Program-made: the position numbers and the translations under genes
Part shown: one piece after another, positions 52,751 through 59,524 of the stretch
How positions within the stretch are numbered: position 1 is the stretch's first letter
Layout of the letters: each line of letters opens with the position of its first letter
Notes under the pieces: model-generated
What the model was told of the DNA's origin: nothing
Databases searched by the model: none
What the model saw: the letters and a program-made list of their open reading frames with translations, nothing else
Assembly (NCBI GenBank): GCA_900128395.1
Contig: LT649249.1
Span: 1-61,389, forward strand
DNA length: 61,389 bases
DNA from: Stramenopiles sp. TOSAG23-2
Taxonomy: Eukaryota; Sar
Direction: 5' to 3'

Positions 52751-55700
52751 TATGGTAAACGTAAGCCAGCTGGTGGTGATTTCCCTGATAAACCGCCAAA
52801 AATTGCAGAAATACCGAAAACGATTGGTCGTAGTATTGATAAATTAATTTATATGTATACATCTACTGGAATTTTAGCAATATTAACATTAGGTTTATCA
52901 CCATTATTACTTGCTGTTGGACTTTTGTACAAGGCATATACAATGACAACGAAAATATTAAATCCAGTAAAGAAGGAAAAATTAACAACAAATGAAATTT
53001 TAAAAAAGATGACATTGGAAGAAAAATGTTTAATGACAGGTGGAAAAACAACATTCGCTACGGGGGGCTGTCCAAGACTTGGTGTACCACCATTGAAATT
53101 TACAGATGGTCCAAGTGGGGCAAGAGGTATGGCCGTAATACCTTTGACTTTGATGCGACGTGGAATTTTCACGGATATTCCTTGGATATCCAAGAAAACT
53201 GAATTTCAAGATCCAAATAAAAATAGTAGAGCATGGTGGTTGAAGCTATTGGAAAAAAATGTACCAGATGCGTTGCTTTTAGGTCCTGGTACATTCGGTA
53301 CGTGTTGCCCATGTGGTACAAGTTTAGCTGCTACGTTTGATCCAAAATTAGCATATGATGTTGGCAATTTGATCGGAAGGGACACCATAACAAAAGGTGC
53401 AAGTGTTATTTTAGGGCCGACGTTGAATTTAACACGAACACCCACAGGTGGTAGAAATTTTGAAGCCTTTGGAGAAGATCCATACCTTGGTGGTATCATG
53501 GGTGTAGAATGGGTAAGAGGTGCACAAAGTGTCCAAGGTGTTGCTGCATGTGGTAAACATTTTGCATGTAATGAATTTGAACGTTTACGAATGGTAACAG
53601 ATAGCAGGGTAAACAAAAGACCGTTGCATGAATTATATTTGCGTCATTTTGAAATGCTTGTGAAGGACGGTGGTGTGAAATGTTTGATGACTGGGTATAA
53701 TAAAACAAACGGCACGTACATGTGTAGCAATAAACCATTGTTAGATAAAATTCTAAGGCAAACGTGGGGATTTGAAGGTGTAGTTATGTCTGATTGGGGT
53801 GGTACACATGATACTGTTGGAAGTGCATATGGTAATTTATTAGATTTAGAAATGCCAGGTCCTGTGTTTGAACGTGGCCAAAAATTGATTGATGCAGTAA
53901 ATAATGGTAAAATATCAATAGATCACATCGATAAGCATGTAGAACGTATGTTAAATTTAACAGAAGATTTAAAAGGAAAAATGGGACCTGGAACAAAAGT
54001 TGAATTTTCCAACGAATTGCCAGGGCCAAATGAACCGGAAGATATTGAATTGTTGCGAAAGATAAGTCGTGAAAGTTTAGTTTTATTGAAGAACAAAGAT
54101 GAGACATTACCATTGGAAAAAGATGGTAATATCGATATCACATTATATGGGCCAAATGCGGTCAATTACAGTATTACAGGAGGTGGAAGTGTGGAAACAT
54201 TACCACCAACGCCAGTATCAATAGAATCTGCATTTAAAGATGCATTTCCAAATGCAAACGTGACGGTACAAGATTTTTCTGATGTGGACTTGGAAATAGC
54301 AAATATGCGAAATTTCACTCCATTTTTAGTAGAAATTTTCGATTCGCCTACATACATGGAATCAAGTGCAAATTGCTTAGGAAGTTTAACATTGAAGGAA
54401 GGTATGTTATTGTGCCCAACGTTACGATTGATTACATGGTCCTTACTGGCACCAGGACTTTTTCCAACTGCTGTGTATGATAAGGCAGGAGCTAAAGTTT
54501 CAACAAAGTTAAAAAAATGTTCAACCACAAAACAGATAAAACGACATGCGTTTGAATTTGGTGCATCTGGTCCGGCACGATTATCAGTGGATGGAAAAAT
54601 TATTGCTACAACACCAAGTGATTATGCTCAAACAGACGTGATTGGGTGGGCAAATTGGGGGATGAATTGCAAAGGTATTGTTTGTACTATAGATTTAGAT
54701 GATTCCGTGGAGCATGATGTTGTTATTGAATGGAAAGCACATAATTGTTTAACTGAAAACAAACGATTAATGGAAGGATTTGGTCCACAAATGCGTGGCG
54801 GGGCTTGCCCATTTGGATTTGAATTGAAACATAAAAGCGAAAGTCTATCTGAAATTAGATTAAAAGCAGCAGCAGTGCAAGCTGCTAAATCTAAGTATAA
54901 TGTCCTATTAGTCGGGCGCCAATCTATGGAAGAAACGGAAATGTTTGATGTCGAGTCCATGAAATTAGGGCAAGGTCAAATTGATTTAATACGTACTGTC
55001 GGTGAGGCATCGAAGCGTAATGGAAATAAGATAAAAGCAGCAGCAGTGCAAGCTGCTAAATCTAAGTATAATGTCCTATTAGTCGGGCGCCAATCTATGG
55101 AAGAAACGGAAATGTTTGATGTCGAGTCCATGAAATTAGGGCAAGGTCAAATTGATTTAATACGTACTGTCGGTGAGGCATCGAAGCGTAATGGAAATAA
55201 GACTATTGTTTTGATTAATGCCGGTACACCAGTTGAAATGCCATCATGGGTTGATCATGCAGATAGTATTATGCAAATTTGGTTTGGGGGTCAAGAAGGT
55301 CCAAAGGCATTGGCATCCGTAATAAATGGTTCATATTCCCCAGTTGGTAAATTGATAGTATTATGCAAATTTGGTTTGGGGGTCAAGAAGGTCCAAAGGC
55401 ATTGGCATCCGTAATAAATGGTTCATATTCCCCAGTTGGTAAATTGCCATTTACGGTGCCGAAAAAGTTTGAAGATAATCCAACCTATACAGAAGATGGG
55501 CGTCGTTTCCCAGGTATTGATTATTGTTGTTACTTTGAGGAAGATCTGGATATTGGATATCGTTATTATGATCGTCCTAGTAACCAATCAAAAATTATGT
55601 ATCCATTTGGTTTTGGATTATCTTATAGTAAATTTCAAGTAAAAGGTAAATCATGCGAACCAAAGATATTAAATGTACAAAATGCAAAAGATACTTCAGT

Positions 55701-57377: not shown

Positions 57378-57692
57378 TTAGAGATTTGTAAAAATTATTG
57401 TGATTATAAGGAAATACCATTAGTGATGAGTATTACATAGGATAATCATGTACTTGTTTGTTTTTAACACTACAATTATTAGAGATTTGTAATTTGTAAA
57501 AAATATTTATAAGGAAATACCATTAGCGATGAGTATTACATCGGATAATCTTGTACTTGTTTGTTTTTAACACTACCATAGATTTGTAATTTGTAAAAAA
57601 TAATATTATTGTGATTTATAAGGAAATACCATTAGCGATGAGCGATGAGTATTACATCGGATAATCTTGTACTTGTTTGTTTTTAACACTAC
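57378..57692. repeat. Three diverged ~105-bp tandem repeats
   Basis: The core GGAAATACCATTAG..GATGAGTATTACAT..GGATAATC.TGTACTTGTTTGTTTTTAACACTAC occurs near 57410, 57513 and 57621. The units differ by substitutions, indels and a small internal duplication (GCGATGAGCGATGAG). Divergence shows these are genuine old repeats rather than assembly doubling. Confidence 0.9.
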
Positions 57693-57887
57693 GTGCATAT
57701 TAGCATGCATATACCAGGTATTAAAAAAATGTAGATGTATTTATTATTATTTATTTTTGACAAAAATATATATTTAAAACAAATTAGTTTTACATAGTTA
57801 TACATATCATCCATCCATATACAATTTTGATGTTATACGTACCCTTCATTTTTTTTAAAGCATTGAGTTCTATTTATTTAAATCAAC

Positions 57888-58109
57888 TTTTTTTTTCTAT
57901 ATGATGCAAGGGAAAATTAAAATTGTGAATGGGAATGTTGTAAGGGAAGGGGATGATATTGAAACGGGTTCTACAACTAATGCAAATAATAATAATAATT
58001 TTTTTTTCTATATGATGCAAGGGAAAATTAAAATTGTGAATGGGAATGTTGTAAGGGAAGGGGATGATATTGAAACGGGTTCTACAACTAATGCAAATAA
58101 TAATAATAA
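57888..58109. repeat. Exact 111-bp in-frame tandem duplication at the SelK-like gene start
   Basis: Copies lie at 57888-57998 and 57999-58109. Each carries the ATG and the first ~33 codons. The single-copy start is the ATG at 58012; reading from 57901 doubles the N-terminus. Confidence 0.95.
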
Positions 58110-58606
58110 TGCAAATAATAATAATAATTTTGTAAATAATTTATCGAACTATCATAAAGGTGCAATAGCTTTTTTAATATGTATGGCATTGTTTGGTATG
58201 CGGGTAGCATTTCCATTGTTAATGATGTTTGTTTTGTATAATGTATATCTATCATCATCGTCTTCATCATCATCAAATGGTATAAATGTTCCGTCTTCTT
58301 TTCGATCTTTTTTCAATAGTACATCAGGTAATAATAATAATAATCGAAGAACTACTACTACTTTTGTATAATGTATATCTATCATCATCGTCTTCATCAT
58401 CATCAAATGGTATAAATGTTCCGTCTTCTTTTCGATCTTTTTTCAATAGTACATCAGGTAATAATAATAATAATCGAAGAACTACTACTACTACCAGTGG
58501 TCGAAGAAATAATAATGGAAGAGGTGGTGGTGGTGCGAATATACGTACAGTTAGTGATTTACCTAAACCTCCACCATCCTCATGATCCAGAGGTAGTGGC
58601 TGTTAA
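58012..58606 (+). CDS. SELENOK: Selenoprotein K-like protein with in-frame UGA (Sec)
   Basis: SelK is a small ER-membrane selenoprotein linked to ER-associated degradation and palmitoylation. The N-terminus (KIKIVNGNVV) resembles the SelK start. One membrane span lies at about residues 45-72. A Ser/Asn/Arg-rich linker leads to a Gly/Arg-rich tail (GRRNNNGRGGGG) and IRTVSDLPKPPPSS directly before TGA at 58583-58585. That order, with Pro-Pro-Pro just before Sec near the C-terminus, is the SelK pattern. Reading the UGA as Sec adds U-S-R-G-S-G-C before TAA at 58604. A SECIS-type element lies 175 nt downstream. A 130-bp duplication (58232-58491) breaks the frame; with one copy there are exactly 154 codons. 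If UGA is a plain stop, the protein has 147 residues. Confidence 0.72.
58232..58491. repeat. Exact 130-bp frame-breaking tandem duplication in the SelK-like gene
   Basis: Copies lie at 58232-58361 and 58362-58491. AGGTAATAAT at 58326 is an excellent donor sequence and recurs 130 bp later after CATCAG. Intron 58328-58457 would remove exactly one copy. Confidence 0.95.
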
Positions 58607-58636
58607 AATTTCTTTATAAAGAAAACAGTCACTACC
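58592..58636 (+). promoter_or_regulatory. Hairpin 6 nt after the UGA (possible Sec-redefinition element)
   Basis: GGTAGTGGCTGT (58592-58603) pairs with ACAGTCACTACC (58625-58636): 11 Watson-Crick pairs and one G-U. The loop contains a further palindrome, TTTCTTTATAAAGAAA (58609-58624). Selenocysteine redefinition elements in other genes begin about 6 nt after UGA, as here. It could instead be a chance hairpin or an RNA 3'-end signal. Confidence 0.5.
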
Positions 58637-58757
58637 ATTGTCGATAATAACAGTATTATTATATATATCTCTCTAAAAAGAGATATAAAAAATATAAAAA
58701 CGATTTGATAAGATGCATTCATATCATATGATGTGTATAAATCAAATCACAGACACA

Positions 58758-58808
58758 ATGACGTCTTTTATTACGAAAGATAACAAAAAAACGTAATAAG
58801 AGACTGAG
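58758..58808 (+). promoter_or_regulatory. SECIS-type selenocysteine insertion element
   Basis: ATGA (58758-58761) is followed by a 13-bp helix: 58763-58775 with 58792-58804, 12 Watson-Crick pairs and one U-G. The 16-nt apical loop begins AAA. The 3' side continues TGAG (58805-58808), giving the tandem sheared G-A/A-G core of eukaryotic SECIS. The shape is form I. The spacing from ATGA to the apical AA (14 nt) is slightly long, and the lower helix is weak. Confidence 0.75.
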
Positions 58809-58888: not shown

Positions 58889-59524
58889 TTAATTTTTAGT
58901 ATTTAATGTAGACCCTTCGGTATATCCAAAATGTTCCATATTTTTCGTCGTAACATTCAATGTCACTTTTACAATCCCATGTGATTTCACTCTTGTTACT
59001 TCACGATCATTATTACGTGCTGCAAATTTTGTATCTCTAAATTCAGCTGGAGCACTTAATAACCAACCTAAAAATTCTTGAAGTGGTGATGAGGCAATCG
59101 GTGCAAACATATGGACATACCTAGTATATTTACCGGCACGCGTCGGCAATAAGACTGCTCCGTAACCTACACAATTTCCTTTTTTATTATCTTGAACTGT
59201 TAAAACTAAACGTGGCCAACCATATGCATTTGTTGTTGAAAATGTGGCGGCTATTGGAAAATTCCATACAACGGTTGCACCAGATTTCCTGGAATGATCA
59301 TTAATGGAATATTGACTATCATTTGTTGCTAATGCTGGACCTTCTTGTATCCTCCAATCAGGGCCATATGAGAAATCATATGTACATGCCAATGGCTCTT
59401 CGCCACGAAACGAACCACTTTGTACTTGCCCCGTTACATGCAAATATATATTTTTTGGTCCTTTTGGTTGTAATTTCTCAGCACTTAATCGTAATCGTTG
59501 CCTTGCTATAATATCTTGCGCCAT
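58889..59524 (-). CDS. B9D1: B9 domain-containing protein 1 (B9D1, MKS complex)
   Basis: B9D1 is a C2-like B9-domain protein of the MKS complex that, with MKS1 and B9D2, gates the ciliary transition zone. The 211-aa protein is essentially all B9 domain. Diagnostic stretches include HVTGQVQSGSF near 30, TYDFSYGPDWRI near 48, VVWNFPIAATFSTTNAYGWP near 85, GYGAVLLP near 119, the PLQEFLGWL region near 143, and REVTRVKSHGIVKVTLNV near 174. The length is close to animal B9D1. Its start ATG lies in a 108-bp tandem duplication that extends upstream and does not harm the frame. It is divergent from the TMEM107 gene. Confidence 0.93.
   Translation of the reverse strand: MAQDIIARQRLRLSAEKLQPKGPKNIYLHVTGQVQSGSFRGEEPLACTYDFSYGPDWRIQEGPALATNDSQYSINDHSRKSGATVVWNFPIAATFSTTNAYGWPRLVLTVQDNKKGNCVGYGAVLLPTRAGKYTRYVHMFAPIASSPLQEFLGWLLSAPAEFRDTKFAARNNDREVTRVKSHGIVKVTLNVTTKNMEHFGYTEGSTLNTKN

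Follow-up and report, generated by a model that had tools for sequence, protein, structure and literature searches.

The stretch of DNA analysed here, which we call the window, has a length of 61,389 nucleotides and is contig 16 of a draft genome that comprises 793 contigs and 17.45 Mb. Its ciliary genes (B9 domain, TMEM107 and KAP) point to a flagellated protist. Near the 3′ end of the window lies a gene for a low-complexity protein, and the features of this gene and its surroundings are listed in Table 1. When one copy of a 130-bp tandem duplication is omitted, the frame encodes 147 residues before a UGA at 58583, continues with S-R-G-S-G-C and ends at the TAA at 58604; if decoded, the UGA would be the seventh residue from the end of the protein. 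A single membrane span is predicted near the N-terminus, with a hydropathy maximum of 2.2 at residues 52-70, and the span region occupies approximately residues 50-80 when the UGA is read through. In this genome, the present locus is the only match to a DNA pattern for DLPKPPP.

Table 1. Coordinates of the features at the locus (positions in the window)
Feature	Position	Strand	Remarks
Perfect 111-bp tandem duplication	57888..58109 (57888-57998 / 57999-58109)	+	In frame; second copy of the gene start
Coding sequence, first part	58012..58231	+	GKIKIVNG N-terminal motif, Asn-rich linker, start and most of the membrane span region
Perfect 130-bp tandem duplication, frame-shifting	58232..58491 (58232-58361 / 58362-58491)	+	Probably an assembly artefact
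Coding sequence, second part (one 130-bp copy omitted)	58362..58582	+	Gly/Arg-rich tail, end NIRTVSDLPKPPPSS
TGA, candidate Sec codon	58583..58585	+	Relatives' proteins stop at the same place
Tail codons S R G S G C and TAA stop (58604-58606)	58586..58606	+	
UGA-adjacent hairpin, redefinition-element-like	58592..58636	+	13-bp outer stem, arms 58592-58604 / 58624-58636, one G-U
SECIS-type element	58758..58808	+	ATGA, helix arms 58763-58775 / 58792-58804, loop AAAGATAACAAAAAAA, TGAG

According to the original prediction, the frame runs to TGA 58583 and encodes seven more residues before a TAA. The ATG at 58012 and the TGA at 58583-58585, which follows ...DLPKPPPSS, are both present. However, the frame as assembled closes at a TAA at 58369-58371 because the perfect 130-bp duplication shifts it, and the UGA is in frame with downstream codons and a real stop only if one copy is left out. 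The prediction ignored this break in the frame, and it also overlooked the hairpin directly 3′ of the UGA. The TAA lies where it was placed, at 58604-58606, but it is preceded by six sense codons, and the number seven is reached only by counting selenocysteine (Sec).

The read-through protein, used as the query against 5.8 billion proteins, returned 8 relatives, and a further search with the alignment of those 8, in which 7999 candidates were scored, listed at least 23 environmental relatives (E-values 2e-61 to 3.3). Conservation is seen at the start (GKIKIVNG in the closer relatives), in the span and over the final 12-15 residues ahead of the UGA. Twenty-one of the 23 listed relatives, which are represented by proteins only, end 1-4 residues past PPP, where the present gene meets its UGA; the remaining two, P0009 and P0013, are without the motif. 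Judged from the protein sequences, these shared ends would fit proteins truncated at a Sec UGA, and they would equally fit an ordinary functional C-terminus. No Cys form at the UGA site occurs among the 23 listed relatives. Their DNA had no match in viral_contigs or genome_contigs. No solved structure matched the protein by sequence.

The frame depends on how the 130-bp duplication is treated. The repeat listing for the window has 22 entries; 19 of them are two-copy duplications, complete and perfect, with lengths of 75-171 bp, and these occur in genic and intergenic sequence alike. Furthermore, the environmental protein P0001, which is 96% identical over 95% of the query, has a single copy of both the 130-bp and the 111-bp unit. 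On these grounds we take the duplications to be artefacts: the 130-bp duplication probably arose in the assembly, with one copy as the probable true state, and the 111-bp duplication is probably an artefact of the same kind. Alternatively, the duplication could be real and one copy could be spliced out as an intron that extends from the GT at 58328 to the matching AG. This alternative concerns the frame only and is compatible with any of the readings of the UGA that are weighed below. The AG/GT junction is present in both copies, and splicing from GT 58328 would remove exactly one copy and restore the one-copy frame. However, a splice pair on either strand is available in only 9 of the 22 listed repeats, and 19 of these 22 are complete perfect two-copy repeats, some of them between genes, which counts against an intron. 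The one-copy state of P0001 also speaks against it, although a protein cannot reveal an intron. Considering the repeat survey and P0001, we judge a duplication-born intron to be less likely than an artefact and, taken by itself, improbable.

The 19 perfect duplications are spread over positions 22657-60821 of the window, and none lies in its first 22 kb. Some of them break genes, and one example at 55262 adjoins two overlapping glycosidase-like frames. Upstream of the present gene, at 57404-57695, there are three diverged copies of a 73-nt repeat that are 75-95% alike and not perfect.

Selenocysteine machinery and other genes with in-frame TGA

The original prediction supposed that this organism inserts Sec, and it named a genome without Sec machinery as grounds for rejection. 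The genome agrees with the prediction. The machinery genes are directly observed, with tRNA-Sec, EFsec, SelD, an SBP2-like protein and a PSTK-like protein all found, and three other genes contain an in-frame TGA. The tRNA-Sec, which carries the anticodon TCA, scores 64 bits against a cut-off of 47; it is present in two tandem copies, and this doubling is perhaps the same kind of artefact as the duplications of the window. SelD and SepSecS both score above their cut-offs. The eEFSec protein matches a solved protein with 459 bits and contains two eukaryotic SelB domains (Pfam); its score against the selB model TIGR00475 is under the cut-off. The SBP2-like protein matches solved SECISBP2 with 82 bits, and the PSTK-like protein reaches 98 bits, which is under the curated cut-off of 382. 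As far as a genome can show, the organism uses Sec.

Two of these components share a frame with further domains. SelD (L005 1535-4072, C587) follows a pyridine nucleotide-disulphide oxidoreductase domain in a fusion, and its CGGCGSK contains Cys rather than Sec; NADH-dehydrogenase-like SelD fusions are described for bacteria and protists, and are ascribed to transfer from bacteria, in passages of PMC4561486. In the SBP2-like protein (L058 19-3090, C113; 1023 aa), the same frame continues through a PAM2 motif into a METTL21-like domain of the lysine methyltransferase type. An environmental relative, P0024, ends after the matching LNPSAGEFVP stretch and is without the methyltransferase. This arrangement may be a fusion or a matter of annotation, and a literature search found no publication on an SBP2-like/METTL21-like fusion.

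Family searches that read through stops were run on the organism's own genome. The sole GPx match has one TGA inside the domain, as do 2 of the 29 matches to the thioredoxin family. The sites are NVARL-U-DVQ, APW-U-GHC and RQG-U-GYC, and the domains were confirmed for the first two. At these positions Sec or Cys is expected. By sequence, we identify three further, unrelated selenoprotein genes with an active-site TGA in a redox domain: a GPx gene (L021, minus strand, C22), a PDI-like gene (L051, C690) and a thioredoxin-like gene (L052, C147). A candidate SelT/SelW-type (Rdx) gene was set aside: the sole match, of 28.7 bits, lies in a large protein, has no stop within it and shows CCNC at the site, and on this evidence it is not a selenoprotein.

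Predicted hairpins downstream of the UGA

Both hairpins at the locus are structures predicted from the sequence. The distal element lies between the stop at 58606 and a convergent B9-domain gene that ends at 58889, a gap of 282 bases, and it is therefore presumed to be in the 3′ UTR. The stem-loop that had been described at 58758-58808 was recovered in full, with ATGA, a 13-bp helix containing one U-G, a 16-nt loop that begins with AAA, and TGAG. Its predicted fold has an energy of -14.2 kcal/mol and a z-score of -5.4, and none of 200 shuffles was as stable. In 7.37 Mb of local dinucleotide shuffles, 7 SECIS-like cores had helices of 13 bp or more, a rate of 0.95 per Mb strand or approximately 1 in 1000 per kb, which is optimistic because the pattern was written after the element had been seen. 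On both strands of the window, five cores have helices of 9 bp or more, and the one at 58758-58808 is the sole core above 10 bp.

Moreover, the element contains the NTGA...GA core, a stable upper helix and the unpaired AA of a SECIS. By hand count, the spacing from ATGA to AA is 14, and the other three TGA genes have 13, 15 and 15. According to passages of a published SECIS search, the distance from NTGA to AA is limited to 10-13 nt (PMC2375036); the present element exceeds this limit by one nucleotide. With regard to helix I and the internal loop below the core, the folds show no lower helix next to the core. The Rfam model SECIS_1 had no match at the locus or in the whole genome, including the three other TGA genes, and an Rfam search of the locus gave nothing useful. 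We consider the element a good but not a textbook SECIS. Two further hairpins (TATATCTCT/AGAGATATA and GATTTGAT/ATCAAATC) lie between the UGA-adjacent hairpin and this element, at 58655-58749 of the window.

A covariance model, R1, was built from the window element alone and run with filters off. Its search space was 75 kb, made up of the window plus the three TGA loci on both strands. After the element itself, its best match (20.9 bits, E 0.008) is at L052 3052-3104, on the right strand in the 3′ UTR of the thioredoxin-like gene. This match keeps AUGA, AAA and UGAG, and the same element had already been chosen by eye before the R1 run. The reverse strand of the window element followed with 18.5 bits, and then a match of 12.5 bits. 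With 10.7 bits and an E-value of 3.2, the GPx 3′-UTR element ranked 9th of 20; none of the matches fell in the PDI-like gene. An energy-based scan of the same sequences placed the window element 2nd and the GPx 3′-UTR element 4th of 20, and it missed two of the four genes, the PDI-like and the thioredoxin-like one. The top match of a second covariance model was an AT repeat on the wrong strand with an E-value of 0.004, and because of this result the E-values of the element models should not be leaned on. The element chosen by eye for the PDI-like gene is weak, with a z-score of -1.8 and equal stability in 11 of 200 shuffles. A second GPx 3′-UTR candidate, which starts with ATGACGAGCGCAGG (z -4.2), was set aside; the energy-based scan had found the other one.

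From 6 nt 3′ of the UGA, the second hairpin extends across the G-S-G-C codons and the UAA stop, which it includes because the UGA is the seventh codon from the end. The 63 nt from the UGA onward fold with -23.5 kcal/mol (z -6.25), and none of 200 shuffles was as stable. By the same measure, the 19 ordinary stops in the window have z-scores of -2.05 or higher, none with such a hairpin, and the three other in-frame UGA codons of the genome have z-scores of -0.5 or higher. Only 14 of 24,532 overlapping 63-nt windows of the contig are equally stable, and 2 of these 14 represent the UGA-adjacent hairpin itself. The 3′ UTR holds additional hairpins (349 nt, z -7.2). A stable hairpin a few nucleotides 3′ of a UGA is the arrangement of a redefinition element, and from this one sequence we consider that the hairpin probably acts as a recoding signal. 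The tail codons encode its 5′ arm, which may be a reason for the odd SRGSGC tail.

Readings of the UGA and comparison with known systems

We consider it highly likely that this is a selenoprotein gene and that the UGA at 58583 is read as Sec. This reading is based on the Sec machinery, the other TGA genes, the R1 match, the ranks in the energy scan, the ends of 21 of 23 relatives and the hairpin behind the UGA. Several observations count against it: the spacing of 14, the helix I that is not evident, the SECIS_1 model that finds no match and the frame that is broken as assembled. In addition, the 9th rank of the GPx element with R1, the missed PDI-like gene, the AT-repeat model, the genes missed by the scan, the lack of a Cys relative and the occasional use of TGA as a terminator all weigh on the same side.

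If the UGA is so read, the product would be a small single-span membrane selenoprotein with a build like that of SelK or SelS. SBP2 bound to the SECIS-type hairpin at 58758-58808 would bring eEFSec and Sec-tRNA to the UGA; Sec would be inserted, S-R-G-S-G-C would be added, and termination would occur at the TAA at 58604. The hairpin 6 nt 3′ of the UGA would probably delay termination and favour recoding in the manner of a selenocysteine redefinition element (SRE), and Sec could form a redox pair with the last Cys.

Alternatively, UGA 58583 may be an ordinary stop behind a functional C-terminus ...DLPKPPPSS, with the hairpins serving 3′-end formation or stability in the gap of 282 bases between the convergent genes. 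TGA does terminate 2 of the 18 frames of at least 250 codons in the window, conservation of the motif in 21 of 23 relatives reaches the stop, as it would in a functional C-terminus, and the gap contains several other hairpins. However, the distal element has a SECIS core on the coding strand that is matched by the 3′-UTR element of another TGA gene, and the genome retains the whole Sec apparatus. An ordinary stop also leaves unexplained a 13-bp hairpin that is phased 6 nt behind the codon and absent at the 19 other stops, and we regard this alternative as unlikely. In stimulated read-through, a strong hairpin stands a few bases past the stop codon, and such a hairpin is observed here; thus, the UGA might be read as a standard amino acid, with the distal element unrelated. 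Such read-through would gain no tail beyond six codons and, in a Sec-using genome, would reduce the SECIS-type element to coincidence, which makes it very improbable. Decoding as Sec is the reading that we adopt.

More tentatively, and with considerable doubt, we propose a family of small membrane selenoproteins, environmental and as yet unnamed, that is marked by the signature N-I-[RK]-[TG]-[VI]-S-D-L-P-K-P-P-P-[SA]-[SA]-U. At least in this species, the UGA-adjacent hairpin would dictate the six-residue tail and work together with the distal SECIS, and the terminal Cys would belong to a Sec-x5-Cys redox pair. If this is true, the 21 environmental relatives with the PPP ending are selenoproteins recorded without their Sec, and the whole family is misannotated. 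The UGA-adjacent hairpin would then offer a testable protist example in which a single Sec codon is served by two RNA signals. The elements found in this lineage, whose upper helices are longer, would then escape the usual SECIS pattern and Rfam.

The gene had been predicted to be SelK-like, and the build supports this description: a short N-terminal part, one span near the N-terminus by hydropathy, a Gly/Arg/Pro-rich basic tail and Sec within the last few residues are shared with SELENOK and SELENOS. Profile evidence does not follow. None of the 20 members of the family alignment matched the Pfam SelK profile (E up to 10, HMMER filters on), Pfam searches with the protein, with 9 family members and with 20 gave chance matches only and no SelK, and hhalign assigned a probability of 1.2% against one human SELENOK sequence. 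Membership of the SelK family by sequence is thus unproven, and we call the predicted product a SelK-like selenoprotein, by build, of an unnamed family. Among the papers listed in literature searches, neither titles nor abstract openings described this family, which is not proof of its absence in print. The N-terminal xIxNGxV motif and the PPP before Sec resemble those of human SELENOK. The weakest match, P0023 (E 3.3), ends in PPPRAGG, which is similar to the PPPMAGG before Sec in human SELENOK and is a lead only. SELENOK and SELENOS have one or two residues after Sec, whereas the present gene has six and ends in Cys; unlike these proteins, the present family is far more conserved in the last 12-15 residues before the UGA. 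In passages of PMC7539508, SELENOK and SELENOS of algae are almost exclusively in the Sec form, and SelK is said in passages of PMC2375036 to occur in nearly all Sec-using eukaryotes; therefore, a protein of this kind is expected here.

With respect to the RNA signals, the distal element resembles a eukaryotic SECIS in its NTGA/GA core, its stable upper helix, the unpaired AA that opens the apical loop and its 3′-UTR position, and it differs in the spacing, the helix I and the Rfam result given above. A hairpin directly 3′ of the UGA is also the form of the bacterial SECIS, as passages of PMC8704476 describe it, and in this respect the two are alike. However, the genome has a eukaryotic eEFSec, an SBP2-like protein and a separate 3′-UTR element, and therefore there is no reason to assume the bacterial mode. 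A parallel in layout exists with SELENON and SELENOT, for which passages of PMC8704476 and PMC3541580 describe an SRE hairpin just 3′ of the UGA-Sec in addition to a 3′-UTR SECIS; the present gene likewise has a UGA-adjacent hairpin besides a 3′-UTR SECIS-type element, whereas its hairpin also includes the real stop and part of the 3′ UTR. Taken together, the locus probably represents a known system whose tail is unusual and which probably has a second recoding signal.
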